From positions 2,046,001 to 2,110,000 of the forward strand of contig NZ_BMYZ01000001.1 in NCBI RefSeq assembly GCF_014652535.1: a stretch of DNA of 64,000 bases, in the 5' to 3' direction. Position numbers and translations under genes: made by a program. This stretch comes from Cellvibrio zantedeschiae. GTDB taxonomy: Bacteria > Pseudomonadota > Gammaproteobacteria > Pseudomonadales > Cellvibrionaceae. The notes beneath the pieces were generated by a model. That model ran no database searches. It was not told the origin of the DNA and was given only the letters and a program-made list of their open reading frames with translations. Shown here one piece after another: positions 33,982 to 54,368 of the stretch. Within the stretch, counting starts at the first letter, position 1. Every line of letters begins with the position of its first letter.

Positions 33982-35340
33982 TTACTTAAGTAATTTGAGC
34001 AAGGTAGGCTCCATGGCTTTAGCCCAAATCTCATATCCCTTTTCATTAGGATGTAATAAATCAGGCATTATTTCCTTAGGCAAATTACCCTTGTCGTCCA
34101 GGAAGGATTTATTAATATCGAGGAAATAGATTTTCTTGTTATCTGCAAACGTGGAAATAATGGCGTTCACACGATTATTAATTTGACGCAGCTCACCTTC
34201 AGGTTTTTCATCACGCGGGAAAATTGCCAACAATAATATTTTGGTATTTGGTAAGCGCTTCTGCAACTCTTCTATGTCGCGCTTAATACCCGCAGCAGTC
34301 AATTCAGGCTTCTCCTGACGATGACCGGTATTGTTAGTACCAAACATCAACACAGCAACTTTCGGGTTTAAGCCATCCACTTCGCCATGCAGCAAACGCC
34401 ACAATACGTTTTCGGTACGATCTCCGCCAAAGCCTAAAGCAACTGCATTATATTTTTCGTAATTATGATTAAAAACGTTAAAGCCATCTTTTTCCCAACC
34501 CTGAGTAATGGAGTCACCGATAAAAATAACCTGCGCATTTTTACGTACTTTAATTTCTTCGAGCTTTTGCAAGTGACGCGGCAACCACCAACTAATAGAC
34601 CACCATTCATTTAACATGGAGGGAGTAACGGCTACTGTTTTATAATCGGGACACGTAACATTTGTGTTACCGGTTTTCTGGATATTTACATTCGCGATAG
34701 CAAGCTTACCCTCTCCACCTGTTTCAAGCGCAAAAGGTAAACGGACGCCAGAAAAATTATCACCGTCCTGCGCGAAACATTTCAGCGGAACACTTAAATG
34801 TTGCCAGCCTTTTCCAGCCAATTCCCGACCATCCAAAACATAGGGGATCTTCCGCTCGCAACTACTACCAACGCATTTAGCTTTAAAAGCCAAACCACCT
34901 TTGGCTAGCTCAATCACATTAAGATGAAAATTAACAACACCAGCTTGCATGTAATCAGCAAGATCAAGCGGTGCGTTGGCTTCAAAATTTAGCGCAGCTC
35001 GCCAGGAATCTTTCCATGCAAATGTCAATGCGTCGGCACTTGCAGACTTATCGGTTTTCGTAACGCTCACATCTGAGTTAGGTGCGGATGAACCTGCAAT
35101 TTTGCTCACTTTTGCTGAGCTGCCTTCAAGCACTTGCTGGGCCACCGGGCTTTCAATAACTACACGAATATTGGGATTTGTTTGCCCAGAATATAAATTC
35201 AAACCTTGCGTCGTTGCCGCTTGATTAACATTTGATGATTTTTTCTCTACCGTTTTTTGCCCGGTATGATTACAAGACACCAAAACCAAACTTAAACAGC
35301 TGATAATCGCCGAACGCATCGCATAAGATCGCTTTTGCAT
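33982..35340 (-). CDS. Lipoprotein SGNH/GDSL hydrolase with N-terminal beta-sandwich (ExoP-like) domain
   Basis: A 452-residue protein. The lipobox is VLVSCNHTG near residues 20-28, so it is membrane anchored. I use ATG 35340, with GGAG six bases upstream. Residues about 75-220 look like the galactose-binding-like domain of ExoP-type glycosidases (FAWKDSWRAALNFEANAPLDLADYM in parts, GWQHLSVPLKCFAQDGDNF). Residues about 245-450 are an SGNH esterase of the PAF-acetylhydrolase/acetylxylan esterase type: block I VIFIGDSITQGWEKDG, block II GFGGDRTENVLWRL, block III FGTNNTGH, block V LLHPNEKGYEIW. A carbohydrate deacetylase is likely. It lies just beyond the terminator of the fucose cluster. Confidence 0.85.
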   Translation of the reverse strand: MQKRSYAMRSAIISCLSLVLVSCNHTGQKTVEKKSSNVNQAATTQGLNLYSGQTNPNIRVVIESPVAQQVLEGSSAKVSKIAGSSAPNSDVSVTKTDKSASADALTFAWKDSWRAALNFEANAPLDLADYMQAGVVNFHLNVIELAKGGLAFKAKCVGSSCERKIPYVLDGRELAGKGWQHLSVPLKCFAQDGDNFSGVRLPFALETGGEGKLAIANVNIQKTGNTNVTCPDYKTVAVTPSMLNEWWSISWWLPRHLQKLEEIKVRKNAQVIFIGDSITQGWEKDGFNVFNHNYEKYNAVALGFGGDRTENVLWRLLHGEVDGLNPKVAVLMFGTNNTGHRQEKPELTAAGIKRDIEELQKRLPNTKILLLAIFPRDEKPEGELRQINNRVNAIISTFADNKKIYFLDINKSFLDDKGNLPKEIMPDLLHPNEKGYEIWAKAMEPTLLKLLK

Positions 35341-35387
35341 ACTTGTCTCCAATTATTTTTATGAATGATTTAAAGGTGGTTGAAAGT

Positions 35388-35451: not shown

Positions 35452-36294
35452 TTAGGCTTTTACCACAGTTTGTTTTTGGGTACCCATACCTTCAATACCC
35501 AACTCCATCACATCGCCCACTTCCAAATAAAGCGGTGGCTTCTGGCCAAGGCCAACTCCGGGCGGTGTACCGGTACTGATAACATCTCCCGGTTGCAAAC
35601 TCATAAACTGGCTGAGGTAATGTACCAAAAATGCGGGGCCAAATACCATGTGTTTAGTAGAACCATTTTGGAAAGTTTTACCGTTAACTTTTAACCACAA
35701 ATTCAAATTTAATGGATCGGGTACTTCATCTTTAGTCACCACATAAGGACCTATGGGACCAAAACTGTCGCAGCCCTTACCCTTATCCCACTGGCCGCCG
35801 CGCTCAAGCTGAAAATTACGCTCAGATACATCATTGATAACACAGTAACCGGCAATGTGATCCATTGCATCGTCTAATTCAACATAACTACAATGTTTGC
35901 CTATAATTATGCCCAGCTCAACTTCCCAATCCAACTTGGTAGAATTGCGTGGCTTAATTACATTGTCATTAGGACCGGTGATTGCACTGGTGGCCTTCAT
36001 AAAAACAACAGGTTCATCCGGCACTGCCAAACCTGATTCAGCAGCGTGATCAGCATAATTGAGTCCGATACAAATAAATTTTCCCACGTTATTTACACAA
36101 GGACCAAAACGTACAGGATCAGCAACCAGGGGCAATGAACTACTATCAATGGCCGCAATTTTTTTTAAGCTTTCATCGGAAAGTGTTGCACCGTGTATGT
36201 CGCTGATGACATTTGATAAATCGCGAACATTTCCGTCTTTATCTAAAATTCCAGGACGCTCTTGGCCGGGCAAACCGTATCTCAGTAATTTCAT
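35452..36294 (-). CDS. FAH-family hydrolase, probable 2,4-diketo-3-deoxy-L-fuconate hydrolase
   Basis: A 280-residue fumarylacetoacetate hydrolase family protein. The metal site is visible: DWEVELGIIIGKHC with the E-x-E pair near residues 117-130 and the Asp of VINDVSERNFQLERGGQW (in parts) near 150-160. MKLLRYGLPGQERPGILD at the start is typical of the sugar-acid branch. In the non-phosphorylating L-fucose pathway this family cleaves 2,4-diketo-3-deoxy-L-fuconate to pyruvate and L-lactate. It is the last gene of the AKR-UxaA-UxaA-SDR-FAH operon. A GTG four codons upstream is an alternative start. Confidence 0.88.
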   Translation of the reverse strand: MKLLRYGLPGQERPGILDKDGNVRDLSNVISDIHGATLSDESLKKIAAIDSSSLPLVADPVRFGPCVNNVGKFICIGLNYADHAAESGLAVPDEPVVFMKATSAITGPNDNVIKPRNSTKLDWEVELGIIIGKHCSYVELDDAMDHIAGYCVINDVSERNFQLERGGQWDKGKGCDSFGPIGPYVVTKDEVPDPLNLNLWLKVNGKTFQNGSTKHMVFGPAFLVHYLSQFMSLQPGDVISTGTPPGVGLGQKPPLYLEVGDVMELGIEGMGTQKQTVVKA

Positions 36295-36373
36295 CTTAAC
36301 TCTCACAATTGCTTTGTATTTAGGATACGCAGGTTAGCAACGAGAAACAAAGCCCAACCTGCACACAAATTTA

Positions 36374-37102
36374 TTAATTAGTCCAACCGCCATCGATCAC
36401 ATTAATCGTGCCCGTGGTAAATGCAGATTCATCGCTCGCCAAATAAAGCGCGAGCTGCGCCATTTCCATCGCGCTACCCAAACGCCCCATAGGTTGGCGC
36501 GCAACAAAATTTTTGTAGGCCGTTTCATAATCGCCGGTTGAATGAAGACGCTGCTCCAGTGACGGTGTGTGTACCGTGCCAGGACAAATGGCATTGCAGC
36601 GAATACCTTGTGCAACGAAATCAGCAGCCACCGCTTTGGTTAAACCAATAACCGCGGCTTTAGTCGCGCCGTAGGCACACCGATTTTGCACTCCTTTAAT
36701 CGAGCCCGCCACTGAGGACATATTAATAATAGAGCCCCTGCCACGTGCAATCATATCCGGGAGAAAAGCGCGAATCGTGCGATACATGGAAGTAACATTT
36801 AAATCCATGGAAAAATTCCAGTCTTTCTCATCACCATCCAAAATGGTTCCGCTGTGCACATAACCTACGCAGTTAAATAAAATGTCTATTGGGCCAATTT
36901 CTTTCGCAAGTGCGATCACTTCTTCTGAATTTAAAACATCCAGCTTGCGAACTTCGCAGCCCGCAATATCTTTTAATGCATCAAGATTAATATCAGTTGC
37001 GATTACACGCGCTCCTTGAGCGGCGAATAATTCTGCGCTTGCGCGGCCGATGCCTTGGGCGGCGGCGGTGATGAGTGCGGTCTTGCCTTGTAGACGGTTC
37101 AT
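36374..37102 (-). CDS. SDR oxidoreductase, probable 2-keto-3-deoxy-L-fuconate dehydrogenase
   Basis: A 242-residue classical short-chain dehydrogenase. Cofactor motif TAAAQGIGRA near residues 11-20 with Asp in VIATDINLDAL (NAD preference); catalytic Ser in IINMSSVAG, then Tyr-x3-Lys in CAYGATKAAVIG. MNRLQGKTALITAAAQGIG matches the family of 2-keto-3-deoxy-L-fuconate dehydrogenases, which make 2,4-diketo-3-deoxy-L-fuconate. ATG 37102 is chosen; the longer frame adds 13 residues without similarity. It sits 52 bp after the UxaA-type large subunit and before the FAH hydrolase, the order of reactions. Confidence 0.88.
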   Translation of the reverse strand: MNRLQGKTALITAAAQGIGRASAELFAAQGARVIATDINLDALKDIAGCEVRKLDVLNSEEVIALAKEIGPIDILFNCVGYVHSGTILDGDEKDWNFSMDLNVTSMYRTIRAFLPDMIARGRGSIINMSSVAGSIKGVQNRCAYGATKAAVIGLTKAVAADFVAQGIRCNAICPGTVHTPSLEQRLHSTGDYETAYKNFVARQPMGRLGSAMEMAQLALYLASDESAFTTGTINVIDGGWTN

Positions 37103-37154: not shown

Positions 37155-38372
37155 CTATGCTATCTGCCTAACCGGCAAACAACTTGGTCCAATCGGTTCA
37201 AAAGATTTGTAAGTCAAAATAAATTCTTGATGGCCCAATTCCTCTGAAACGCTGCGCTTACCTGACGCAACATCAATTACATTTTGTAAAATTTCTGCAC
37301 CGACTTCATCGAGCGTAGCTTCGCCTTCCAAAATACGGCCAGCATTTACGTCCATATCTTCGCTTAAACGACGATAGGTTTCTGGATTGGCGCATACTTT
37401 GATGACGGGAGAAATAGCGGAACCTACTACTGAGCCGCGGCCAGTAGTAAATAAAATGACATGGGAACCGCATGCAATTAGTTCGATAATTTCGGCATTA
37501 TCAGAAATATTCGGGAAACCAAAACGCGGTTCACCATCGGGCACAACATCCAACAAATATAAACCGCCGGTGGGTGGAATATCGCCGGGTTTTATTAAAC
37601 CACTAATTGGCGACGAACCTGATTTTGAGTAGGCACCCATGGACTTTTCTTCCATGGTAGTTAAGCCGCCGTCTGCATTCCCAGGGGCAAAACTGCCGAA
37701 ACCCATAACGCGATAATAGTGTTCGGCTTTAGCAACACAGGCTTCAATTTGTTCGCCGAGTTCCGGTGTAATGGCACGATCTGCCATAATAGTTTCGCAA
37801 CCAATTAGCTCACCCGTCTCTTCAAAAATACAGGTAGCATTGGCCTCTACCAAGGCATCAAAACAACGACCCACAGCAGGGTTTGCGCTAATACCGCTGG
37901 TACCGTCTGAACCGCCACAAATAGTCCCTACAATTAATTCACTTAATGCCATAGGTACGCGTGGTGTTTTATCTGCTTCAACTTTTATGCGTGCAACTGC
38001 TGCGAGCCCCGCTTCAATCGTTGCCTTGGTTCCGCCCGCTTCCTGGATGACTAATAATTCTGCCGGGCGACCACTGGCTCGAATTTCTTTTAATAATTTA
38101 TCGCGATTCATACTTTCACAACCGAGCGAAATTAATAATGCACCGCCGACATTGGGATGAGTGGAAACCGCACGCATCATTTCATAAGCATATTGGTTAG
38201 GGTAACAACCGGGAAAGCCAATTAAATGCACGTCCATATCATTTGCGAGGGTTACAATTTTGCGCGATACGTGATGCGCACACTCAACCAAATAAGCTAC
38301 GACAAGGACATTGCGAATTCCTTTACGTCCATCCTGACGAGCGTACCCTTGAAAACTTACCGCGGTGTTCAT
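37155..38372 (-). CDS. UxaA-family dehydratase, large (catalytic) subunit
   Basis: A 405-residue protein of the altronate/galactarate dehydratase family (UxaA C-terminal part). Family features: GYARQDGRKGIRNVLVVAYLVECAHH (in parts), GFPGCYPNQYAYEMM, LISLGCESMN, IVGTICGGSDGTSGISANPAVG and LIACGSHVILFTTGRGSVVG; cysteines in these segments (PGCYP, LGCES, TICGGSD) would hold the Fe site. Overlaps the small subunit by one base (TAATG), so the pair is translationally coupled. Relatives act on altronate, galactarate or sulfolactate; from context the substrate here is L-fuconate (inference). Confidence 0.85.
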   Translation of the reverse strand: MNTAVSFQGYARQDGRKGIRNVLVVAYLVECAHHVSRKIVTLANDMDVHLIGFPGCYPNQYAYEMMRAVSTHPNVGGALLISLGCESMNRDKLLKEIRASGRPAELLVIQEAGGTKATIEAGLAAVARIKVEADKTPRVPMALSELIVGTICGGSDGTSGISANPAVGRCFDALVEANATCIFEETGELIGCETIMADRAITPELGEQIEACVAKAEHYYRVMGFGSFAPGNADGGLTTMEEKSMGAYSKSGSSPISGLIKPGDIPPTGGLYLLDVVPDGEPRFGFPNISDNAEIIELIACGSHVILFTTGRGSVVGSAISPVIKVCANPETYRRLSEDMDVNAGRILEGEATLDEVGAEILQNVIDVASGKRSVSEELGHQEFILTYKSFEPIGPSCLPVRQIA

Positions 38373-38695
38373 TAAGACTCACTCCTGTCTTTATTTTGAC
38401 GAGTACGTGTATGGCTTGGAATATAATCACTTTGCATATTGTGCATGTGCACGTGCTCGCCCTGCGCGGCCGCTTGTGTCATTGAACCAATAGGTGCACC
38501 GTAACGATAAACTTTTTCCCCCACATTTAATGGCTGGCGCGCAAGTTTATGCCCTACCTCTATAGTTTGATTTATATGCACAGATTCACCATCAATATGA
38601 ACAACATCCCCCGCACTAATTTGTGTTACACACACCAAAATATTATCGTCAGGATGCAACAAAATGACGGGTGTGATTTTTTTTGAATTTGTCAT
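38372..38695 (-). CDS. UxaA-family dehydratase, small SAF-domain subunit
   Basis: A 107-residue SAF domain equal to the N-terminal part of UxaA: VILLHPDDNILVCVTQISAGD, GHKLARQPLNVGEKVYRYGAPIG (in parts) and QAAAQGEHVHMHNMQSDY, the last being the conserved EHVHxHNxxS/D motif. ATG 38695 is used; a TTG codon just before it gives no benefit. It lies 12 bp after the aldo/keto reductase stop and overlaps the large subunit start. Split SAF/catalytic pairs are known, for example for sulfolactate dehydratase. Confidence 0.87.
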   Translation of the reverse strand: MTNSKKITPVILLHPDDNILVCVTQISAGDVVHIDGESVHINQTIEVGHKLARQPLNVGEKVYRYGAPIGSMTQAAAQGEHVHMHNMQSDYIPSHTRTRQNKDRSES

Positions 38696-38707
38696 CAATC
38701 TACTCGT

Positions 38708-39742
38708 TTAAAAAGGTGTTGGGGCATCAGGGTGAAGTAAATTGCGCTCACGTAAACGCTGCCAAAATTCTTGCGGAATGGAATAATTCATCCAAATAAT
38801 TGCTTGCTCAACTTGCGCAGGTGATGCCAATCCAGCGATAACAGAACATACTTGCGGGTGCGCGCCAGGAAACTGCAGTGCAGCAGCAGGAAGTGGAACA
38901 GAAAATTCTGCGCAGATAATTTCTAATTGCTTGACGCGCTCAATAATGTGCAGCGGCGCTGGTTCGTAATTGTAATAAAAAGGCCCAGCTCCACTTACAC
39001 CCGAAGCGAGTATTCCAGAATTAAAAGGCCCGCCTGAAATGATTGAGACTCCGCGTTTTTTGCACAGCGGAAAAAAAGAGTCGCATGGACTTTGTTCTAA
39101 TAGCGAATAGCGCCCCGCCAATAAAAACCCATCAAAATCGCCGTGCGCTAATGCCTGCTCACACACTTCCCATTCGTTGGTTCCAAGACCAATTGCTTTC
39201 ACAACGCCTGCCGCACGCAGTTCATTCATGGCGCGATAACCGCCCTCAAAAAATTCGCGGAAATGTTGTGCGTGCTGCTCGCCATGAGTGAGCGAACCTA
39301 AATCGTGGGCAAATAAAATATCGATGTAATTTGTTTTTAGCCGCTGCAAGCTGGACTCAAACGAACGCATAACCGCATCGTAGGAATAATCAAAAACAGG
39401 TTCCAACGCAGGCGTATCCACAAAGCCATGCCGAATGGAATCGCTAGATGTTGTAGGCACCAGCAGGCGCCCAACTTTTGAAGAAATAATTAATTGCTCC
39501 CGCTTGGCCGCTAGCTGGCTACCAAGACGAGACTCACTCAAACCAAAACCATAGTGGGGTGCCGTATCAAAATAATTAATACCGGCATTAAGTGCAGCGT
39601 CCAAGGTTGAGTCAGCTTCTGCATCCGTCATTGCCCGGTACAGATTTCCCAAGGTAGCAGCACCAAAGCCCAAGGTCGGCATAGGCAAAGAGGTGTTTCC
39701 AAAACGTTTGGAACTTTCGGAAGGACCCATGGGATCTAACAT
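38708..39742 (-). CDS. Aldo/keto reductase, probable L-fucose 1-dehydrogenase
   Basis: A 344-residue TIM-barrel AKR related to D-threo-aldose 1-dehydrogenase/L-fucose dehydrogenase. The catalytic tetrad is present: Asp and Tyr in FDTAPHYGFGLSESRLG (Asp near 58, Tyr near 63), Lys in IISSKVGRLL, His in ILFAHDLGSL. The Phe/Tyr-rich loop GPFYYNYEPA is common in the aldose dehydrogenase branch. It would oxidise L-fucose to L-fucono-1,5-lactone. ATG 39742 has GAGAG six bases upstream. First gene of the catabolic operon (reverse strand), divided from the IclR gene by about 130 bp. Confidence 0.87.
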   Translation of the reverse strand: MLDPMGPSESSKRFGNTSLPMPTLGFGAATLGNLYRAMTDAEADSTLDAALNAGINYFDTAPHYGFGLSESRLGSQLAAKREQLIISSKVGRLLVPTTSSDSIRHGFVDTPALEPVFDYSYDAVMRSFESSLQRLKTNYIDILFAHDLGSLTHGEQHAQHFREFFEGGYRAMNELRAAGVVKAIGLGTNEWEVCEQALAHGDFDGFLLAGRYSLLEQSPCDSFFPLCKKRGVSIISGGPFNSGILASGVSGAGPFYYNYEPAPLHIIERVKQLEIICAEFSVPLPAAALQFPGAHPQVCSVIAGLASPAQVEQAIIWMNYSIPQEFWQRLRERNLLHPDAPTPF

Positions 39743-39863
39743 ATTCAACTCTCACGCCTTGTTTTTATAATTAAAAAAAGCTTTGCCCATAAAATAAATT
39801 TTAACCCATTATAGTCAAAGTTAACATATCCCCCTATGGGAATTGATGTAAAAAACAGTCAAT

Positions 39864-39884
39864 AAAAAAGGCGCCTTAGCGCCC
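39864..39884 (-). terminator. Terminator at the end of the IclR gene
   Basis: GGCGC-CTTA-GCGCC-type stem (39870-39874 with 39879-39883) followed on the minus strand by CTTTTTTA. It overlaps the last codons of the IclR gene. Confidence 0.75.
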
Positions 39885-40673
39885 TTCGTTACTCAGTGCA
39901 TCCGCAATTTTGCGGGCCGATATTTTGAGCTTTTCGATCACCTGCTCGTGGGTAACAGCTTGCGCTTTAATCGTTATGAAAGGCACATTGAGTACCGCTG
40001 TAGCGCCATTCAAACCCAGGATGGGCACACAAAGATCTGTTACACCCTCCACGAAATCACTCGCCGATTGAACGAAACCACGCTCCACCGCAACTTTGGA
40101 CCGCTGCAAAAAATGCTGGATAAGCTCTGAGTCTGCTGAGGCGCGCAATTGTGGCAACCAGCGAGCCTGGGTTTCCTCGGGCGCATAGCCATAGAGCATT
40201 AACCCGGAGTTGGTATCCACCAAGCGACGGCGATAACCCACACGCACAGAGAAACCCAAATCCATTGGGCTTTCAATACGCCCCACCACCACAATTTGAT
40301 CTCCAGACGGCACCACCAAGTGACAGGATTGCCCCAACTCACGTGCCAAATCTTTCATAACAGGCAAAGCAGTTTCCAGCAAAGAGCGCGCTGAACCCTG
40401 GGCGATACCCAAAGTGAATAATTTATTCGTTAAGGTGTAACCATCACGGCCATCTGGTGATGATTCTATGTAGCCACGAAATTCCAGCGCCAACACCATG
40501 CGGAATAATTCGCTAACAGAACGACCCAAAGTCACGGCCATTTGTGACGTGGTCATGGGCGCGCCATTACGCGCTAGAAGTTCAAGAATATCCAAGCCTT
40601 TTTCAAGCGCTGGAGCACGGTATTTGCGATCGTTTTCATCTGCCGATGTGTCTATAGTAATATTATTATTCAT
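39876..40673 (-). CDS. IclR-family transcriptional regulator (fucose cluster)
   Basis: A 265-residue IclR regulator. Winged helix about residues 20-80 (LEKGLDILELLARNGAPMT, MTTSQMAVTLGRSVSELFRMV, FRGYIESSPDG); effector-binding GAF-like domain about 95-260 (LARELGQSCHLVVPSGDQIV, GLMLYGYAPEE, GFVQSASDFVEGVTDLCVPILG in parts, AVLNVPFI). Placed between the two minus-strand sets of fucose genes (fucP-lactonase and AKR-UxaA-SDR-FAH), it most probably controls them in response to L-fucose or a pathway acid. Acts as repressor or activator: not determinable. Confidence 0.92.
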   Translation of the reverse strand: MNNNITIDTSADENDRKYRAPALEKGLDILELLARNGAPMTTSQMAVTLGRSVSELFRMVLALEFRGYIESSPDGRDGYTLTNKLFTLGIAQGSARSLLETALPVMKDLARELGQSCHLVVPSGDQIVVVGRIESPMDLGFSVRVGYRRRLVDTNSGLMLYGYAPEETQARWLPQLRASADSELIQHFLQRSKVAVERGFVQSASDFVEGVTDLCVPILGLNGATAVLNVPFITIKAQAVTHEQVIEKLKISARKIADALSNEGR

Positions 40674-40772: not shown

Positions 40773-41603
40773 TTAAAAACGGTAAAAATTTTTTGCTGTT
40801 GTTCCAAATATTTCATCCAGTTCGGTTGCTGATGCGACAGGTAAAATTTGTTTTGCCAAAGTGAGCCACTCATCATAATTTCCGTGGTTGGGTGCGAGAT
40901 TTAACACCGGCCAATCGCTTCCCCACATCAAACGCTCTGCGCCAAACAAGTGATAGAGGTGAACAATATAGGGGCGCAAATGATCAACTCCCTGTTCCAT
41001 GGATGCTTCCGTAAGCAAACCCGATAATTTGCAATAGACTTGCGGCAACTCCGCCAATGCTGCAATTGCTTTTGCCCATGATTCAAAACCCTTAGCTGCA
41101 ATAGCAGGTTTAGCCGCATGATCTATCACAATCGCGAGTTTCGGATGACGCCGCGCAAAAATTCTCAAATATTGTAAATGACGCACATGCACCAACGCAT
41201 CCAAACTTAAATTGCACTGCTGCATTTCTGCAATCGCAATTTCAATATCCGGGCTCAAAATCCAGCTATCTTCCGGCAAACTTTGCAACATAGGGCGCAG
41301 ACCGCGCATTTTAGGATGCTGCGCCAAATTACGAATTCGCGGCACCGCTGTGATTGATTTCAAATCCACCCAACCGACAACAGCTTTAACTAAATCCGAT
41401 TCATTAGCGAGGCGCAGCAAAAAATCTGTGTCAGCATCACTCTCTTGCGATTGCACAAGCACACTGCCCGTAATCCCCGCAGCCTTGGTTAATGGCTCTA
41501 AATCGACTGGATTAAAATCGCGGTAAATTGCCGTTAAATCTGCAGTGGGCCAGCGACAATCGTTTTCGCCAATTCGCCAAAAATGTTGATGCGCATCTAT
41601 CAC
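40773..41603 (-). CDS. COG3618 amidohydrolase, probable L-fuconolactonase
   Basis: A 276-residue metal-dependent hydrolase of the lactonase branch of the amidohydrolase superfamily. Residues seen: DAHQHFWRIG (N-terminal H-x-H) at residues 3-12, Lys/Arg region KMRGLRPMLQ, His in VIDHAAKPAI near residue 165 and Asp in WGSDWPVLN near residue 227. The family opens L-fucono-lactone or L-rhamnono-lactone. GTG at 41603 is the start, with AGGG 7 nt upstream. It lies 15 bp after fucP and 99 bp before the IclR gene. Confidence 0.89.
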   Translation of the reverse strand: MIDAHQHFWRIGENDCRWPTADLTAIYRDFNPVDLEPLTKAAGITGSVLVQSQESDADTDFLLRLANESDLVKAVVGWVDLKSITAVPRIRNLAQHPKMRGLRPMLQSLPEDSWILSPDIEIAIAEMQQCNLSLDALVHVRHLQYLRIFARRHPKLAIVIDHAAKPAIAAKGFESWAKAIAALAELPQVYCKLSGLLTEASMEQGVDHLRPYIVHLYHLFGAERLMWGSDWPVLNLAPNHGNYDEWLTLAKQILPVASATELDEIFGTTAKNFYRF

Positions 41604-41618
41604 AACAAATCCCTGTGT

Positions 41619-42884
41619 TTAACCCTTTATTTCGCGCTGATAACATGAGCGCGCAAAAACTGCGATTACCGCAAAGGAAGCCAGGGGAATCACCACTGCA
41701 GTATGTATGCTGGAGATATCAGAAACAAAACCCATCACCGCCGCAAGAATGGCGCCGCCAATAATTGACATTACCAATAATGACGAGCCAGCTTTAGCCT
41801 GCTCGCCTAAATTTTTAATCGTTAAGGCAAAAATAGTAGGAAACATCAGCGACATAAAAAAGCTGGTAGCAACAAGCGCAAGCATACCTACAAGATTAGG
41901 GCTTACAACTGCAAGGGCACAGAGCACAACATTCGCAATCGCGTAGATAAACATTAATAAACTCGGCTTGATGCGCGCCATAAGTGCAGTGGCAAAGAAG
42001 CGTCCAATCATAAAAATGACTAAAGATGCGAGTAAATAATTGGCCAATATTTTTTCGCCTGTACCCGGCAGCGCTTGCTGACCGTAGCGAATCATATAAC
42101 TCCACAAACACACTTGCGCGCCAACATAAAAAAACTGCGCAGTTACACCAAACATAAATTGGCCACTAGCCAGCAGATTTTTATAATCGTTCCAACTCAC
42201 CGATTCGCCAGCTGAAGATTGTGTGGCAACTTTAGGAAACCTTACTAACAAAACCACAAATGCCCACAGAAACACCAGTGCACCTATCGCCAAATAGGGC
42301 CCTTGCACCGCATGGGATTCCGCTTGATAAAACTGCTCCAATGCCGCCGGAGCCATAGCGGCCAAATCTGCCGCACTCGGTTCATGGCCAGACAAAATAA
42401 ATTCACGGCCAATAATAATTCCTGCAATACAACCAAAAGGATTAAAAGATTGCGCGAAGTTTAAACGACGCTCTGCAGTAGCAGGATCACCCATAGCGAC
42501 AATTAAGGGATTGGCAGACGTTTCCAAAAAAGCCAAACCACTGGCGATTACAAAAAGCGCACCCAAAAATAAATTGTATTCGCGCTGCGCCGCCGCCGGG
42601 TAAAACAGAAACGCACCAAAAGCGTAAAGCAACAAGCCAGTGACTACCGCTGCTTTGTAACTGTAACGGCGCATAAAGAGAGAAGCGGGAATAGAGAATA
42701 CAAAATAGCCGGTATAAAAAGCAGATTGCACTAAACCTGATTTCAAATCGCTTAAGGAAAAAATTTTTTTAAATTGAGCGATTAAAATATCGTTGAGGTT
42801 ATTAGCCATTCCCCATAAAAAGAACAGGCTAATAATGAGGATCAACGGCAGTAAAACGGATGTAGCTTTCTCGTTATTATTCAT
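41619..42884 (-). CDS. fucP: L-fucose:H+ symporter (FucP family, MFS)
   Basis: A 421-residue major facilitator with about 12 hydrophobic helices. FucP-family signatures: LFFLWGMANNLNDILIAQFKKIF (in parts) in helix 1 and the loop, QSAFYTGYFVFSIPASLFMRRYSYKAAVV (in parts), LETSANPLIVAMG with the proton-linked acidic residue, and FNPFGCIAG. ETSANP is the hallmark of the FucP/GluP group. Substrate assignment to L-fucose rests on the flanking pathway. It is followed directly by the lactonase and is divergent from lldD. Confidence 0.92.
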   Translation of the reverse strand: MNNNEKATSVLLPLILIISLFFLWGMANNLNDILIAQFKKIFSLSDLKSGLVQSAFYTGYFVFSIPASLFMRRYSYKAAVVTGLLLYAFGAFLFYPAAAQREYNLFLGALFVIASGLAFLETSANPLIVAMGDPATAERRLNFAQSFNPFGCIAGIIIGREFILSGHEPSAADLAAMAPAALEQFYQAESHAVQGPYLAIGALVFLWAFVVLLVRFPKVATQSSAGESVSWNDYKNLLASGQFMFGVTAQFFYVGAQVCLWSYMIRYGQQALPGTGEKILANYLLASLVIFMIGRFFATALMARIKPSLLMFIYAIANVVLCALAVVSPNLVGMLALVATSFFMSLMFPTIFALTIKNLGEQAKAGSSLLVMSIIGGAILAAVMGFVSDISSIHTAVVIPLASFAVIAVFARSCYQREIKG

Positions 42885-43062: not shown

Positions 43063-44211
43063 ATGATCCTTGCAAATATCGATGACTATCGGGAACTTGC
43101 CCGCCGCCGCCTGCCCCATTTTCTATTTGAATACATAGATGGCGGCGCTTTTAGCGAAACCACCTTGCGCAGTAACGCCAATGACCTGCAAAAAATCCTC
43201 TTACGCCAGCGCGTCTTGCGCGACGTCTCCGAGGTATCCACAGCAACGACGCTCTTTGGCCAGAAGCTGGCAATGCCTATTGGCTTGGCACCCGTGGGCA
43301 TTGCCGGTTTGAATGCCCGACGTGGTGAGGTACAGGCTGCGCAAGCCGCTGAAGCAGCAGGCGTGCCTTTCTGTCTTTCTACGGTTTCGGCTTGCTCGAT
43401 TGACGAGGTTCGTGCGGGCGTAAATAACCCCGTCTGGTTTCAGCTGTACATGATTCGCGACCGCGGCTTTTTGCGTGAAATGCTTGCTCGCGCAAAAGCG
43501 GCCGGAACCAATACCTTATTGTTCACTGTGGATATGCCTGTGCCCGCTACGCGTTATCGCGATATGCGCTCCGGCCTTTCCTACGGCACCATGTTTCAAC
43601 GCAAATTAACGCGATCACTACAAGTTTTACGCCGCCCTCAATGGGCATGGGATGTGGGTATATGTGGACGCCCGCATAGCCTCGGTAACATTGCGCCTGT
43701 ATTGGGCGAGAACGCTGGTATAGATGAATTCTGGGCGTGGCTCGGTAAAAATTTTGACCCCACAGTAACCTGGGCAGATATAGACCGTATCCGCACCGAA
43801 TGGGATGGCCATTTTATTATCAAAGGTATTTTGGACCCCGACGATGCAAAGCAAGCTGCCAACATAGGTGCAAACGGAATTATTGTTTCCAATCATGGTG
43901 GTCGTCAGCTGGATGGCGCCAGTTCGTCTATTCGCGCGCTTCCAAAAATCGCCGATGCAGTTGGTGATGATGTAACCCTGTTAATGGATAGCGGTATTCG
44001 CAGCGGTTTGGATGTGGTACGAGCATTGGCACTCGGCGCCAAAGCCGTAATGATTGGGCGACCCTGGGTTTACGCATTAGCTGCAAGACAAAAAACGGGC
44101 GCGAGTGAAATATTGCAACTATTTGCCAACGAAATGCGCGTTGCCATGGCTTTGTCAGGCTGCACAAAGATCTCCGATATTAATCGGGATATGATTGAAT
44201 CTATAGATTAA
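43063..44211 (+). CDS. lldD: L-lactate dehydrogenase (FMN, quinone-linked)
   Basis: A 382-residue FMN alpha-hydroxyacid dehydrogenase that oxidises L-lactate to pyruvate at the inner membrane. Features: N-terminal DDYRELARRRLPHFLFEYIDGGAFSE (in parts), PIGLAPVGIAGL, QLYMIRDRGF, FTVDMPVPATRYRDMRSGL (loop with Arg), FIIKGILDPDDA (Lys), and the catalytic His/Arg in VSNHGGRQLDGASSS. Length is close to E. coli LldD. It is divergent from fucP; since the fucose pathway yields L-lactate plus pyruvate, it would finish that pathway. Confidence 0.94.
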   Translation: MILANIDDYRELARRRLPHFLFEYIDGGAFSETTLRSNANDLQKILLRQRVLRDVSEVSTATTLFGQKLAMPIGLAPVGIAGLNARRGEVQAAQAAEAAGVPFCLSTVSACSIDEVRAGVNNPVWFQLYMIRDRGFLREMLARAKAAGTNTLLFTVDMPVPATRYRDMRSGLSYGTMFQRKLTRSLQVLRRPQWAWDVGICGRPHSLGNIAPVLGENAGIDEFWAWLGKNFDPTVTWADIDRIRTEWDGHFIIKGILDPDDAKQAANIGANGIIVSNHGGRQLDGASSSIRALPKIADAVGDDVTLLMDSGIRSGLDVVRALALGAKAVMIGRPWVYALAARQKTGASEILQLFANEMRVAMALSGCTKISDINRDMIESID

Positions 44212-45340: not shown

Positions 45341-47038
45341 TTATTTTACTTTATAGGTTGCCATTCGCACTTTTAACACATGTGGACGCTTCGCAAAGTT
45401 CAACCCCCAATCTGTCTGGTCGCCATTCCAAACTCGCTCCATCACCCATTTACCCTTTTCAAAATGACCTTCTTCAATACGGTCAATCATGTATTTTGAA
45501 TCTTTAATTTCGGTAGAAGGCTTAAATTCAACACGAGCTTTAAATGCAGTAACCAAATATTCATTCTCACTCAATTGCGCGATTAAGGCGCCGCCGCTGG
45601 CTACATCATTTCCTACGGGTGGCGATGTAAAAAACATCGGGCGACCATAGGTCACTTCTGCATTCCACCTACCTAAATCTAAAGTCTGCGTTACAGCTTC
45701 TGCAATTTTTTTACTAGCGGCTTCTTTTTCCTCTTTGGTTGCATCAGGCTTCGCCGCCAATTTTTTAAGCGCATCAGTAGTAACAGGCTCTGACGCTCCC
45801 CATACATTATTTTCAAAACTTAATTTAGCCCACTCGCGAGCCATAGGTGCAAGTACGCGATAGTGTTGCGCAAAGTTTTCGATGGTTTCTTCATCATATT
45901 TATCTGCACCAAGGGGATAATTCACGTAATCAGTGTCGTCCATACCAAAAGGAGCAAAACCCACGGCGCCTTTACCAAGAGCATCAAAAAAGTAGCGCGC
46001 ATAAGGTTGGCTGTTTCCAATTTCGGGAACAAAAAGTGGATTGTCGTTACGTGAATATTGTTCCAACCATTTCAACACTGTTTTGTGATCTGGATTATAA
46101 ATATCCGGAGCTACTGCATCCAAACTTGGTGCTGCTGCTTTCCAAATGTGAATTACATTATCAGTTGCACCACCTTTCTCCCAAAAGGTTGGGTTGAAAG
46201 GATCGCGCAAAGCAACATTGGTATACATGGGTAAGGGTTTGATTGCTTTACCTGCAGAAGCTAATTCCTCGCAAAATTTGGCAATGTAATAGGCATGGAA
46301 AAATTCATCCGCATCTTTACCAAAAACTTCTGGCCAAGTGCCTGCCTTAACGCCAATTTTTTTAACGAGTTCTGCAGGAATTGGAGCGTTAAATACAGCA
46401 TTTGCCATAGTGGAATAATCGCGGTCTGCACCCCAGGTGCCAGCTTCGTTTTGTACCTGTACCATGATGACTGTATTTTTTTCATCTACTTTTTTCAAAT
46501 GCGTCATCAATTGTAGAAACGCCTTTTTATCAGCCGCAAGCGTATTTTTTCCCAAGGGCGATAACGAATTCAAGGTGTCGCCGGTTTTGGTAACTACGCG
46601 TGGAAAACGTTCGTTATTTAATTTAACCCATGCCGGAGTGTAGTGCGGTGCATTATTTTTCCAGCTACCGAACCACAATAAAACCAAACGTGCATTATGT
46701 TCACGCGCTTGCTGCAACAATGTATCAACATAAGAAAAATCAAACTTGCCCTCAGTCGGTTCAATTTGTTCCCAGGCAACAGGAATTTCCAAGGTGTTGG
46801 CGTGCATTTTTTCAAAACTTGGCCAAACATATTTTAAGGTGTCTGGATAATTGCTGGAGTTATTTGCCTGCATAGCCAACATTAAAAAAGGTTCGCCATC
46901 TACCATGAGCGCATGGCGACCATTTTTAGAGACAAATTCCGGAGTTGATGCTGCTTGCGCACCCATTGAATTCAGCATAAAACCGAATACCGCCACAGCA
47001 GAAATAAGGGTTCGACGGAGACTTAACAACTTAAACAT
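45341..47038 (-). CDS. bgl35A: GH35 beta-galactosidase with DUF5597 C-terminus (Bgl35A-like)
   Basis: A 565-residue exported glycosidase. Signal peptide about residues 1-29 (cut near AQA|AS). The GH35 barrel covers about 30-390: RHALMVDGEPFLMLAMQANN, general acid Glu198 in VQVQNEAGTWG, nucleophile Glu339 in LFVPEIGNSQ. The DUF5597 C-terminal domain runs to the end. This architecture matches Bgl35A of Cellvibrio japonicus, which removes galactose from galactosylated xyloglucan fragments. Start has GAGGT nine bases upstream. It is followed, on the same strand upstream, by the TonB receptor and GH95 genes. A general beta-galactosidase role cannot be excluded. Confidence 0.88.
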   Translation of the reverse strand: MFKLLSLRRTLISAVAVFGFMLNSMGAQAASTPEFVSKNGRHALMVDGEPFLMLAMQANNSSNYPDTLKYVWPSFEKMHANTLEIPVAWEQIEPTEGKFDFSYVDTLLQQAREHNARLVLLWFGSWKNNAPHYTPAWVKLNNERFPRVVTKTGDTLNSLSPLGKNTLAADKKAFLQLMTHLKKVDEKNTVIMVQVQNEAGTWGADRDYSTMANAVFNAPIPAELVKKIGVKAGTWPEVFGKDADEFFHAYYIAKFCEELASAGKAIKPLPMYTNVALRDPFNPTFWEKGGATDNVIHIWKAAAPSLDAVAPDIYNPDHKTVLKWLEQYSRNDNPLFVPEIGNSQPYARYFFDALGKGAVGFAPFGMDDTDYVNYPLGADKYDEETIENFAQHYRVLAPMAREWAKLSFENNVWGASEPVTTDALKKLAAKPDATKEEKEAASKKIAEAVTQTLDLGRWNAEVTYGRPMFFTSPPVGNDVASGGALIAQLSENEYLVTAFKARVEFKPSTEIKDSKYMIDRIEEGHFEKGKWVMERVWNGDQTDWGLNFAKRPHVLKVRMATYKVK

Positions 47039-47211
47039 AGAGACCTCGGTTGGATGTTTTTATTGTTGATGATTACGAATAGACAAGAATTCTATATTAG
47101 CAAATTCATCGCTTATGCCCAGCACAACAATCTTAAATAAATGTCAAAAATAAACCCTGTAGCGCTTTTCACGATACAGGGTTTATCGATGCATCAAAAT
47201 AGCAAACTAAA

Positions 47212-50106
47212 TTAGAACTTAGCTCTCAAACTAATTGAGTAACGAGCATCTTGCGCATAGGAATATGCAACATGATCGCCTGCTTTATTTTGATCCATAA
47301 TACCGATGGTTTTTGCTTTCAACAGGTTACTGGCTTCCAGGGTAACTGTGTAGTTATCCATGAAGGTGTAGCCAATAGATGCATCCAATTGACCGTAATC
47401 ATCGTTGTAAATCGGGATAGCGGCTTTACCAGATCCGTCAGGGAAATCAGGATTGAATCCGTTGCTGCCCCAGGCGATCAAGTATTTGCTACGCCATGAA
47501 TAAGCCAAGCGCGCAGAGATGCCATCCTTTTCATACATTCCCACAACGTTGAATGCATTTTTAGACAACTGATCGATTGGCATTTGGCCATATCGAGTTT
47601 TATCGGTGTCTATAGGACCCGCACCAGTTCCAGTACCAGGTTCAGGCAGTGGAATATTAGCTTTGCTATCGATATAGGTGTAGTTTACATCTACGCCAAG
47701 GCCATCAAATGGAGCAGGCAAAGTGTCGAAAAATTTGCTTACGCCAAATTCAGCACCGTTGATATCACCTGAACCTACATTAGCTAACCAAGTGCCCTCT
47801 CCTACATATCCATTGACATTAAAGTTTGAGCTACCTCTTCTAAAGAAGTTATCCACTTTTTTGTTAAACAGTGCTAAGTGCGCCATGCCGCCTTTATCAT
47901 CAAAATACCACTCAGCCGAAAGATCGAATTGATTTGCAGTCATTGGCTCCAAATATGGATTAGTATCATGAGTTAAAGTATAGACGTAATCACTAACGTT
48001 ATTTGAAGAAGTCAAACCTTCTCTTAGATTAGCACCTAATGTAATTCGAGCTTGCATGTCTGAGAAACTTGGAGCCCAAATCGCTTTAGACGCGGCAAAA
48101 CGAATGAACACATCATCTGTTGCTTTCATTCTCAAGTTAAAACTTGGTAACACGTGTGTATAATCATTCTTAGCATCAAAAGGAGCTGCGCTATCTGGAA
48201 GAACAACAGTCCCATTTGCTGTTTTAGTTAACTTCGTTATTAAATATCCATGAGCAACGTTATCAGTTTGGACAACACGCACACCGAAGTTACCGTCAAC
48301 AGGCATAGACAAATCGTCGAAGCCGTAGTTAACCATCACGTAACCTGATGCTGTTTTTTCTTCCTGGGTATTTCTATAAGCCTCGTTTTTCAACGCGTTC
48401 TTATCATTACCGCAATACCAATCGTTACAGCCTGCGTTTACACCTTCAGTAGTTGCCCAGAAGTTTTTCACCGCATTTTCGGAATAAATGTAACCCGCTG
48501 CAGGAACTTGCACATCACCGCGTTGGAAATTATTGAACGAATACAGAGCCAGGTATTTATTGGCTTGATCCGCAGTAACTTTGGTAATTTGGTTTCTGTT
48601 ACCACCGCCCGCAGTCCATGAATCATAACGGGTTTTCCAATCGTAACCAGTGTTGATATTGTCAGCGGTTTTCTCTGAATAACGCGCACCGGCTTTAACA
48701 GATTTAATGATGGAATCATCAAAACTATATTCAGCATCAAAGCGACCGGTTTTTGCATCTGCCTCGTTACGCTCGAAGTGAGTCATAGCCTGACCAAGCG
48801 TGTAGTTCGCGTAATTGGTCATGTACTTCGGATCAATATAAATAGATGCGTCTTCCGTACCTACACCTTCCAAGCGAGCAGTTGGCGGGAACAAAATAAC
48901 GCCGAGCGTGTAGTCATCTTTGGTGGCTTCTGCTTTTACGTATTGCAAATCAGCAGAGAATTTCCAGTGATCATCTGGAGACCATTTAATGCCGGTAGAA
49001 TAATCAGTGGTGGTGGAAGTTCCTGGTGTCCAACGTGTACTGGTACCAAAGTTCAAACCCCAATCCGCAGGATTAGCAACGGTAACATCACCCGAAATCA
49101 TTTCGCCGTTTGCGCCGTATTGCCAATTTTTGGGGCTGGCAGGAACTATAGCGTTATCGCCGTTTGCGCTATTTAAAAAGAACGCGTTTTCATCGTATTC
49201 TGATTTAAGTTTGCTTTGGAAACCCGTCAAATAAATTTCGGTTTGATCGTTAGGTGCCCATTGGAACGCAGCATACTTACCATCGCGTTGACTGAAATAA
49301 TCGTTGCGACGCCAATCCACACCTTTGGAAACCCACTCAGCTTTTCCGTCAATAGTTCTTGGCAAGAATGGACGTGAGTAAACCTGATCTGAGCGGCTAG
49401 CTAATTTAGATGTTGATAAATCGATTAAGAAACCGAATTCGCCTGCATCAGTAGACCAGCGATTGCTGTACAAGCCAGAGTATTCGCCGTTGGTTTCTTT
49501 AATTTGATCACCGTAGTTACCTTTGATGGTGAAACTTGCCAACTGGCCTGCCGAATCAAACGGCATACGAGTGCGCAAATTCACAGTACCGCCCAAGCCG
49601 CCTTCAATCATATCGGCAGATGGACTTTTGTAAGTATCTACGGCGTACATCAATTCCGCAGGAACATCTTCAAAGCTCAAGCCACGGCCACTTGCTGCAG
49701 AGAAAACATCGCGGCCATTTAATTCGGCGCGAACTTGCGTTAAACCACGAATCGCCACACCACTACCTTCAGCGGCAGGGTGTTCTGCATCGTTGTTGGT
49801 GTAGCGACCAACGGAAACGCCCGGTACACGTTGCAAGGCTTCGGTCACGCTGCGATCCGGTAATTTACCAATATCTTCTGCAACAATTGAGTCCACTATA
49901 ACGTTAGACTTTTTCTTAACTTCTTGTGCACTTTGCACACTGGCACGCTGGCCAGTGATTACAATCTCTTCGGTTCCTTCAGCGGCTTCTGCGGCAAATG
50001 CCTGCATGGAGCCCATAGCACCGAACACCAGCGACATGCTTGACGCAAGCTTGATGTATACCGGCAACCTCTTTTTCAAAAATGTTTGTTGGTTTTTATT
50101 TATCAT
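47212..50106 (-). CDS. TonB-dependent receptor (carbohydrate type)
   Basis: A 964-residue outer-membrane receptor. Signal peptide to about residue 39 (MQAFAAEA). TonB-box-like EEIVITGQRAS near residues 46-56, plug domain about 65-190 (VAEDIGKLPDRSVTEALQRVPGVSV in parts, GSGVAIRGLTQVRAELNGRDVFS in parts), then the 22-strand barrel ending in YSISLRAKF with a terminal Phe. It belongs to the large carbohydrate-linked TonB receptor group (TIGR01782 type). RBS CTGGAG precedes the ATG. Between the GH35 and GH95 genes, it is the likely importer of fucosylated xyloglucan oligosaccharides. Confidence 0.95.
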   Translation of the reverse strand: MINKNQQTFLKKRLPVYIKLASSMSLVFGAMGSMQAFAAEAAEGTEEIVITGQRASVQSAQEVKKKSNVIVDSIVAEDIGKLPDRSVTEALQRVPGVSVGRYTNNDAEHPAAEGSGVAIRGLTQVRAELNGRDVFSAASGRGLSFEDVPAELMYAVDTYKSPSADMIEGGLGGTVNLRTRMPFDSAGQLASFTIKGNYGDQIKETNGEYSGLYSNRWSTDAGEFGFLIDLSTSKLASRSDQVYSRPFLPRTIDGKAEWVSKGVDWRRNDYFSQRDGKYAAFQWAPNDQTEIYLTGFQSKLKSEYDENAFFLNSANGDNAIVPASPKNWQYGANGEMISGDVTVANPADWGLNFGTSTRWTPGTSTTTDYSTGIKWSPDDHWKFSADLQYVKAEATKDDYTLGVILFPPTARLEGVGTEDASIYIDPKYMTNYANYTLGQAMTHFERNEADAKTGRFDAEYSFDDSIIKSVKAGARYSEKTADNINTGYDWKTRYDSWTAGGGNRNQITKVTADQANKYLALYSFNNFQRGDVQVPAAGYIYSENAVKNFWATTEGVNAGCNDWYCGNDKNALKNEAYRNTQEEKTASGYVMVNYGFDDLSMPVDGNFGVRVVQTDNVAHGYLITKLTKTANGTVVLPDSAAPFDAKNDYTHVLPSFNLRMKATDDVFIRFAASKAIWAPSFSDMQARITLGANLREGLTSSNNVSDYVYTLTHDTNPYLEPMTANQFDLSAEWYFDDKGGMAHLALFNKKVDNFFRRGSSNFNVNGYVGEGTWLANVGSGDINGAEFGVSKFFDTLPAPFDGLGVDVNYTYIDSKANIPLPEPGTGTGAGPIDTDKTRYGQMPIDQLSKNAFNVVGMYEKDGISARLAYSWRSKYLIAWGSNGFNPDFPDGSGKAAIPIYNDDYGQLDASIGYTFMDNYTVTLEASNLLKAKTIGIMDQNKAGDHVAYSYAQDARYSISLRAKF

Positions 50107-50225
50107 TGTCTTTCTCCAGTTAAAATAATTTGAAACTACCCCTAGATATTCACGTCACTTATTGTTGTGACTGCCTTGCAACTCCCACACTCCTTCTTAA
50201 CCATCGCGCGATATTTAAAAAGCCA

Positions 50226-52874: not shown

Positions 52875-54368
52875 TTACGCCATGGACTTGAGGAACTCAT
52901 GATGAAGCGGTGCGTATCCCACTCCACCCGCAATAGCGGATTTCATTTTTTCCAGCATCCTGGCCAGGGAATCCCGCTCTGTACCGGACAGCGAAATGCT
53001 TGTTTGGTTGGGAATGATTTTGAAACCGTTGTACATACTCAGCCAGCTGGCATCCTGGAAGGTTTCCTGGTCATAAGTGATCAGGGTGCCGTCAGCCCGG
53101 AAACGTTTGATTTTTTCCGCTAGCATCTCGGGTATATCCATGGATTGAACATCCAACCAGAATTGCGTATCGCCTCTTTTATTAGCTTTGTAATGCAAAA
53201 TCAGGAAATCCCGTAAGCGTGCATACTCCAGCAAATTGAGGCGGTTGGCCTCATCACGCAGCTCAGGGCTAAAATCCGCGTCGGGGAAGTGATTTAGCAA
53301 TTTATCAATTCCCGTCTGAATCAAAGAAATACTCGTTGACTCGAGCGGCTCTAAAAATCCGCTCGCCAGCCCCAATGCGACACAGTTTTTGTTCCAGAAT
53401 TGTTTTCGTACACCTGTAGTGAACTTGATAACACGGGGTTCGGTCAGGGCCCGGCCGCTTGCATGTTTTCGCAGAGTGTCGATGGCTTCTTGATCAGAAA
53501 TATACTTATCGCAGTAAACGTAGCCATTGCCAGCGCGATGCTGCAAAGGAATTTTCCATTGCCAGCCAGCTTCCCGTGCGGTTGAGCATGTATAAGGAAC
53601 CGGTGCCTCAGCATTCTCCGTTTGCATGGCGACAGCGCTGTTACAGGGAAGCCAATGGCTCCAATCCTCATAGCCCGTACGCAGCGCTCCCTCTATCAAT
53701 AACGCCTTGAATCCAGAGCAATCGATAAAGAGCTCACCCGCTACAACCTGGCCACTTGCCAGCACTACGTCTTTGACGAAGCCCGAATGTTCGTCCAGCG
53801 TCACCGATGAAATCATGCCTTCAATGCGTTGCACGCCGCGAGCTTCGGCATACTCACGCAAAAATTTTGCGTATAAAAATGCATCAAAATGATAGGCGTA
53901 GTTGTATCTTGTGAGTGGTGATGCCGGCTCGGCATCAGGCAGGGAAAACCTGTTCTCAAGAGCCATTTGGGTAGAGAGGCAAAAGCTTTCCAAGGCACCT
54001 TCATAGCCGTTTTTGTGCAGCTGAAGCCAATGTTGATAAAAAGATTGCCCATTGATAGGCATACCGTAATCAGCAAACGGATGAAAAAAAGATGACCCCT
54101 TGGTATACCAATCTTTAAACTCTATGCCGAGCTTAAACGTCGCCTGGGTCGCGTTGATAAAGTCTCGCTCGCCAATTCCCAACTGGCGGTTGAAATACTT
54201 GATGCCGGGAACAGTCGCCTCGCCAACACCCACTGTACCAATCACATCAGATTCAACTAATTGAACGCTGACTGGCTTGTCTTTGAGATATTGGGACAAG
54301 GCTGAGGCAGCCATCCAGCCCGCCGTTCCGCCGCCCACAATGACAATCTTCTCAATTGGCTTCGCCAT
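52875..54368 (-). CDS. Flavin-dependent tryptophan halogenase-like protein
   Basis: A 497-residue FAD protein. N-terminal dinucleotide fold IVIVGGGTAGWMAASAL near residues 7-23 and the halogenase hallmark W-x-W-x-I-P seen as GWQWKIPLQHRAGNGYVY near residues 268-285. Also GLASGFLEPLESTSISLIQ near residues 339-357, and Lys/His residues in the N-terminal third. The family in Cellvibrio and other marine or plant-degrading bacteria is often linked to TonB receptors and SapC genes, with unknown physiological substrate; true free-tryptophan chlorination is unproven. It lies about 240 bp upstream of the GH95 gene on the same strand. Confidence 0.87.
   Translation of the reverse strand: MAKPIEKIVIVGGGTAGWMAASALSQYLKDKPVSVQLVESDVIGTVGVGEATVPGIKYFNRQLGIGERDFINATQATFKLGIEFKDWYTKGSSFFHPFADYGMPINGQSFYQHWLQLHKNGYEGALESFCLSTQMALENRFSLPDAEPASPLTRYNYAYHFDAFLYAKFLREYAEARGVQRIEGMISSVTLDEHSGFVKDVVLASGQVVAGELFIDCSGFKALLIEGALRTGYEDWSHWLPCNSAVAMQTENAEAPVPYTCSTAREAGWQWKIPLQHRAGNGYVYCDKYISDQEAIDTLRKHASGRALTEPRVIKFTTGVRKQFWNKNCVALGLASGFLEPLESTSISLIQTGIDKLLNHFPDADFSPELRDEANRLNLLEYARLRDFLILHYKANKRGDTQFWLDVQSMDIPEMLAEKIKRFRADGTLITYDQETFQDASWLSMYNGFKIIPNQTSISLSGTERDSLARMLEKMKSAIAGGVGYAPLHHEFLKSMA

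Follow-up and report, generated by a model that had tools for sequence, protein, structure and literature searches.

Results

Organization of the locus

In the window, that is, the whole stretch of 64,000 nucleotides analyzed here, genes for FucP, a lactonase, an IclR regulator, an aldo-keto reductase, a small and a large dehydratase subunit, an SDR and an FAH-family hydrolase follow one another in this order on the minus strand (Table 1). Their orientation and spacing suggest that they are co-transcribed as one operon. An LldD-type gene is divergent from fucP, and a xyloglucan-type locus adjoins the run.

Table 1. Coordinates of the features in the window, with the match or start that supports each
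Feature	Position	Strand	Details
FAH-family hydrolase, proposed L-2,4-diketo-3-deoxyfuconate hydrolase (FucG)	35452–36306	(−)	PF01557 245 bits
SDR, proposed L-2-keto-3-deoxyfuconate 4-dehydrogenase (FucF)	36374–37102	(−)	start taken at ATG 37102
Large subunit, UxaA/GarD-type dehydratase, proposed L-fuconate dehydratase catalytic subunit	37155–38372	(−)	405 aa, ATG start
SAF-type small subunit	38372–38695	(−)	107 aa, ATG at 38695, stop ending 38372
Aldo-keto reductase, proposed L-fucose 1-dehydrogenase	38708–39748	(−)	PF00248 158 bits
IclR-family regulator inside the gene run	39876–40673	(−)	PF01614 54 bits, PF09339 40 bits
Amidohydrolase, proposed L-fucono-1,5-lactonase (FucB)	40773–41603	(−)	NF052480 203 bits, under cut-off 400
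FucP L-fucose:H+ symporter	41619–42884	(−)	TIGR00885 434.5 bits, cut-off 280.4
LldD-type L-lactate dehydrogenase	43063–44211	(+)	NF008398 598 bits, cut-off 376
Xyloglucan-type locus, proposed L-fucose source	45341–52631	(−)	GH35, TonB receptor, GH95
GH35 Bgl35A homologue	45341–47038	(−)	C. japonicus Bgl35A structure 4d1i 852 bits
TonB receptor	47212–50106	(−)	TIGR01782 625 bits
GH95 protein	50226–52631	(−)	PF22124 557 bits

Two overlapping genes encode a split UxaA/GarD-type dehydratase

An earlier note on this DNA had read positions 37155–38695 as a SAF-domain small subunit coupled to a UxaA-type large subunit. Our results confirmed these coordinates. The genes overlap by 1 base in the motif TAATG, and a Shine-Dalgarno-like AGGAG precedes the ATG of the large subunit. 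In the open reading frame list, the small subunit starts at a TTG (38698), one codon before the ATG retained here. The large subunit scored 276 bits against Pfam GD_AH_C (PF20629; cut-off 26.8) and 100 bits against GD_AH_second (PF04295; cut-off 27.3), and its residues 6–380 match the GarD structure 6u7l (E 6e-45). The small subunit reaches 18.3 bits against Pfam SAF, which is under the cut-off of 21, and it is absent from the three places given by a SAF search of its own genome (E ≤ 0.001). It matches 3k3s, a structure of an altronate hydrolase N-terminal domain (E 7e-13), and positions 3–83 of TIGR03248 (E 1.9e-7).

Joined end to end, the subunits align along E. coli UxaA (29.7% identity) and E. 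coli GarD (30.7%), and they are 32.9% identical to the fused UxaA of their own genome, its only other UxaA/GarD gene. Cysteines C31, C56, C85 and C152 of the large subunit are in register with cysteines of all three fused proteins. They are conserved in 84 of 84 large-subunit rows, as are C327 and C398. The four cysteines conserved in the UxaA/GarD family are Cys134, 173, 208 and 276 of C785_RS13685 (PMC6336799), a protein outside our alignment onto whose numbering those of the window were mapped by pattern. Thus, of the features of the UxaA/GarD superfamily (COG2721), the SAF-like N-terminal domain is present as a separate subunit, both GD_AH domains are carried by the large subunit above their curated cut-offs, and the four cysteines are all found. 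The pair departs from the D-altronate dehydratase UxaA equivalog, a single fused chain, in being split. The domain search found no MR_MLE domain in the pair, which sets it apart from the enolase-type L-fuconate dehydratase. The two chains would assemble physically into one enzyme and, by analogy with the family, this enzyme may depend on iron.

Neighboring genes are consistent with L-fucose catabolism

The earlier note had placed the pair between fucose dehydrogenase and 2-keto-3-deoxy-L-fuconate dehydrogenase. The pair is indeed flanked by an aldo-keto reductase and an L-KDFDH-type SDR, but the first of these names comes from gene context. Among the 6 solved sequences that match the aldo-keto reductase at E ≤ 1e-20, 5 bear the name L-galactose dehydrogenase, with a best E of 4e-26. 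No specific NCBIfam model matches the reductase, and its place in the run suggests an L-fucose dehydrogenase. Context likewise points to the lactonase function of the amidohydrolase, which matches 4dlf, a structure named only 'Amidohydrolase 2' (E 3e-40). The FAH-family hydrolase is closest to the L-2,4-diketo-3-deoxyrhamnonate hydrolase 8gsr (322 bits) and scored 426 bits against NF053535, under the cut-off of 500.

The SDR is closest to 8xwk/8y11 (314 bits), the L-2-keto-3-deoxyfuconate 4-dehydrogenase (L-KDFDH) of Herbaspirillum huttiense, whose mutated pocket comprises Val89, Arg148, Thr183, Leu189, Arg192, Phe211, Arg214, Gln215 and Trp252 (PMC11199699, available part). Counted along the alignment, the SDR matches all nine residues. 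Human DHRS6 (2ag5) aligns with the SDR at 301 bits and all nine positions are matched there too. We take DHRS6 to be the protein called BDH2 in the L-KDFDH study. The substrate described for BDH2 is a different one (PMC11199699, available part). Since the pocket residues are common to both proteins, they cannot decide between those two functions and were rejected as proof of L-KDF specificity.

The LldD-type gene also scored 538 bits against NF033901, slightly under the cut-off of 550. It fits the proposed pathway because L-lactate is a product of it. By gene content, the locus thus holds split UxaA/GarD genes in a route III L-fucose cluster, as in a heteromeric L-fuconate dehydratase. Beside the fucose genes, a protein with an Exop_C-like domain and a GDSL/SGNH esterase domain (33982–35352) could serve this locus as a carbohydrate deacetylase.

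The xyloglucan locus of Cellvibrio japonicus comprises four genes (PMC4285296, available part). The comparison covered those other than xyl31A, and all three have counterparts in the window. L-fucose would probably come from fucosylated xyloglucan side chains, which the neighboring GH95 and GH35 enzymes would release. A tryptophan-halogenase-family protein (607 bits; 52875–54368) adjoins the GH95 gene.

The genome lacks a candidate for the enolase-type enzyme

We searched the whole genome of the window (12 contigs, 4.27 Mb in total, with a completeness rating of 100%) for the usual enzymes. PF13378 (E ≤ 1) gave three places, namely ManD (742 bits to its own NCBIfam model, cut-off 550), L-rhamnonate dehydratase (RhmD; 737 bits, cut-off 393) and enolase, which reaches 19 bits with PF13378, under the Pfam cut-off, and 669 bits with the eno model (cut-off 300). 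PF02746 gave ManD, L-rhamnonate dehydratase and one fragment under the cut-off. The earlier note had seen no enolase-type L-fuconate dehydratase beside the pair, and these two domain searches extend that result to the whole genome. A hidden enzyme of this type was ruled out, all three PF13378 genes being assigned by NCBIfam models; the search relied on domain profiles and NCBIfam rather than on the FucD sequence itself.

No fucose isomerase was found above the cut-off in the genome (C-terminal domain PF02952, best 12.5 bits vs. 29.3). The lack of this isomerase, the one gene of the phosphorylating L-fucose pathway covered by the search, argues against that pathway. The genome gave no match to fucose mutarotases of the RhaM or FucU/RbsD type (PF05336, PF05025); the published L-fucose pathway includes an L-fucose mutarotase (PMC11199699, available part). 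Three IlvD/EDD proteins are encoded, IlvD, Edd and L097, a member of the sugar-acid branch on another contig that scored 837 bits against the L-arabinonate dehydratase model (cut-off 882). In principle, L097 could share the L-fuconate dehydration step.

On contig C3 (L005, 931–3113), L-rhamnonate dehydratase adjoins an L-2,4-diketo-3-deoxyrhamnonate hydrolase, both above their model cut-offs; this FAH protein passes the rhamnonate model with 521 bits (cut-off 500). The two genes may represent a parallel diketo route for L-rhamnose.

The split and its association with FucP are conserved

Scanning genome contigs gave 490 stretches, 483 of which were confirmed as relatives; the best 80 of these 483 loci were kept. 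Some tblastn matches at 1e-6 are distant family members, so a second count was made at ≥40% identity. Among these best 80 of 483 loci, the small subunit was found in 79 at 1e-6 (78 at ≥40% identity), the SDR in 62 (49), the lactonase in 59 (51), the aldo-keto reductase in 56 (56), IclR in 51 (44), FucP in 50 (42), the FAH hydrolase in 32 (32), LldD in 13 (9), GH95 in 13 (12) and GH35 in 3 (3). At 1e-6 the TonB receptor was matched in 13 loci, RhmD-like genes in 4 and ManD-like genes in 3. SDR, lactonase, aldo-keto reductase and FucP are all present in 38 of the 80 at ≥40% identity. The pair stands without any other query gene in eight loci (L061, L063, L064, L068, L070, L078, L084 and L088). 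Gene absences are not firm, because 24 of the 80 loci span less than 17 kb, mostly owing to contig ends.

With three plasmid loci added to the 80, both subunits were found in 82 of 83 loci, and in none of the 82 do they share one open frame. They lie −16 to +32 bases apart in 78 of 82, with starts picked by script; the exceptions are L064 and L070 (about 1.4 kb), L055 (138 bases) and L060, for which no start was found. In L064 and L070, both Planctomycetaceae on short contigs, the gap of about 1.4 kb could hold another gene. On the Ponticoccus plasmid (L091, 5764–11809), a split pair, a mandelate-racemase/muconate-lactonizing-family protein, an L-rhamnose mutarotase, an SDR and an FAH protein form one run, so the two dehydratase superfamilies can adjoin each other.

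Across 37 genomes, including that of the window, the large subunit is present in 18 (70–100% identity). The other 19 comprise 14 genomes without any large-subunit match and 5 with relatives of 33–39% only. In 17 of the 18, a FucP of >400 bits is found no more than 5 kb from the large subunit, and in the remaining one (G008) the adjacent FucP is cut by the contig end (185 bits). None of the 19 genomes without the large subunit has a FucP of >400 bits. A second FucP-like group (279–292 bits) is located elsewhere and also occurs in three genomes that lack the large subunit (G004, G006 and G020).

The nearest relatives of the window are Cellvibrio, and in the tree the window groups with 7 Cellvibrio-type rows (98/94). 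When fused outgroups were included, their branches were extremely long (4.7 to 10), so the tree is informative for the ingroup only. The split lineage could be a dedicated, obligately two-subunit L-fuconate dehydratase subfamily that, in Cellvibrionaceae, Caulobacterales and some Sphingomonadales, stands in for the enzyme of enolase type (a replacement examined in one genome), while deeper Planctomycetota and Chloroflexota branches, in which the pair stands without other fucose genes in the kept loci, would use other sugar acids. We put this forward tentatively and consider it less likely than not.

Discussion

A probable heteromeric dehydratase in a proposed route III L-fucose pathway

Gene context, co-occurrence with FucP and the lack of an enolase-type enzyme lead us to assign the overlapping genes, with good confidence for a prediction from sequence, to a heteromeric UxaA/GarD dehydratase whose proposed reaction, within a route III pathway for L-fucose, is the conversion of L-fuconate to L-2-keto-3-deoxyfuconate. 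We infer the substrate of the pair and the order of the reactions as follows. FucP would take up L-fucose, the aldo-keto reductase would oxidize it to the lactone, and the lactonase would convert the lactone to L-fuconate, the proposed substrate of the split pair. The SDR would then carry out the L-KDF 4-dehydrogenase step and the FAH hydrolase would yield pyruvate and L-lactate, the latter presumably oxidized by LldD. Some points speak against the assignment to L-fuconate: the lactonase and the FAH hydrolase fall under their NCBIfam cut-offs, no specific model matches the aldo-keto reductase, and the SDR fits human DHRS6/BDH2 nearly as well as L-KDFDH. Further such points are the possible share of L097 in the step, the lack of a mutarotase match of the RhaM or FucU/RbsD type, the eight of 80 loci that hold the pair without other query genes, and the reported dispensability of Cj0483, from a similar pair in C. 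jejuni, for L-fucose metabolism (PMC9100392, available part).

One alternative is a pair that mainly dehydrates L-galactonate or D-arabinonate, in a gene run that would serve L-galactose or D-arabinose no less than L-fucose. Both acids have the same C2–C4 configuration as L-fuconate, GH95 also includes L-galactosidases, the solved sequences closest to the aldo-keto reductase are mostly L-galactose dehydrogenases, and the SDR pocket does not discriminate. Furthermore, C785_RS13685 accepts D-arabinonate, D-altronate, L-fuconate and L-galactonate (PMC6336799), and the H. huttiense L-KDFDH binds D-KDP too (PMC11199699, available part). We nevertheless find a main role on these acids improbable, given a FucP that is well above its cut-off and co-occurs with the large subunit, GH95 and Bgl35A neighbors that suit fucosylated xyloglucan, and D-arabinose and L-fucose clusters of Paraburkholderia mimosarum that are each induced by their own sugar only (PMC6336799).

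It is very unlikely that the L-fuconate step belongs to another enzyme (L097 of the IlvD/EDD type, or RhmD or ManD acting promiscuously) and that the UxaA pair does something else. L097 does fall within the sugar-acid dehydratase branch, and a knockout of Cj0483, part of a similar pair in C. jejuni, was reported dispensable (PMC9100392, available part); but L097, RhmD and ManD sit on other contigs, RhmD and ManD strongly match their own equivalog models, and the large subunit is beside FucP in 18 of the 18 genomes that have it, counting the one cut by a contig end. We give practically no credence to an artefactual split, in which a fused uxaA would have been broken by a frameshift or by an error of sequencing. 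The same genome does carry a fused UxaA, but the relatives contradict such an artefact, since the two parts share a frame in none of 82 loci and show the short spacing described above in 78 of them, and the AGGAG motif stands ahead of the large-subunit ATG.

We regard the pair as a real and probably functional L-fuconate dehydratase of the UxaA/GarD type with two subunits; apart from it, the route III L-fucose gene run is a standard one. With this assignment, the dehydration step of L-fucose breakdown in a plant-wall degrader resembling Cellvibrio would have its enzyme, and this catabolism would be linked to an adjoining xyloglucan-type locus. Annotated plasmid records name such genes 'UxaA family hydrolase' or 'altronate dehydratase', and in a pathway reconstruction one fucose locus was described as missing its L-fuconate dehydratase (PMC5507952, available part). 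The assignment therefore aids metabolic models. The known chemistry of the UxaA/GarD family is unchanged by it.

Comparison with known systems

A 2019 paper in Molecular Microbiology (10.1111/mmi.14259) reportedly deals, by its title, with proteins of the D-altronate dehydratase family in pathways for L-fucose. Earlier work had already published or proposed the substrate, the split and the place in the pathway. The action of the UxaA pair on L-fuconate put forward in the earlier note is well supported by context, FucP co-occurrence and the lack of an enolase-type enzyme, but its novelty is not; to call L-fuconate a new substrate for the UxaA family was wrong in view of the activity of C785_RS13685 and the P. 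mimosarum assignment (both PMC6336799), and of the hypothesis on Cj0482/Cj0483. As the arrangement is already described in other bacteria, our result is good annotation rather than discovery.

C785_RS13685 of H. huttiense, compared by description, belongs to the same superfamily as the pair and accepts L-fuconate at 5.6% of its D-arabinonate rate (PMC6336799). It prefers D-arabinonate and, unlike the split pair, is not reported as heteromeric.

In C. jejuni, Cj0482 and Cj0483 (uxaA' N- and C-terminal parts, 88 and 389 aa) are by description also of a split altronate-hydrolase type. According to the available parts of the sources, they are hypothesized to convert L-fuconate to 2-keto-3-deoxyfuconate (PMC9100392, PMC12566272), both are induced by fucose (PMC12566272), and Cj0483 is listed as a predicted dehydratase (PMC6946681). 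The knockout mentioned above, which was not essential for L-fucose metabolism, is that of Stahl 2011 as told in PMC9100392. As far as these texts describe it, the C. jejuni cluster shares FucP and an amidohydrolase with our gene run but holds DapA and an aldehyde dehydrogenase, which we read as an aldolase route, in contrast to the diketo hydrolase route proposed here. FucD of Xanthomonas campestris performs the same reaction in an equivalent pathway, but it is an unrelated enolase-superfamily enzyme (PMC11199699, available part).

The P. mimosarum genes A19U_RS0100650/A19U_RS0100655, compared by description, likewise form a two-gene UxaA/GarD enzyme, assigned from gene context as a heteromeric L-fuconate dehydratase by Watanabe et al. 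2019 (PMC6336799). They would lie in cluster 2, the route III L-fucose cluster, which is induced by L-fucose only (PMC6336799). P. mimosarum is a betaproteobacterium, whereas the closest relatives of the window are Cellvibrio. In a Caballeronia plasmid locus, taken as a stand-in for Burkholderiaceae, the SDR has no match, but the large subunit is 69% identical to that of the window and has homologues of the small subunit, aldo-keto reductase, lactonase, FAH hydrolase and IclR regulator adjacent to it.
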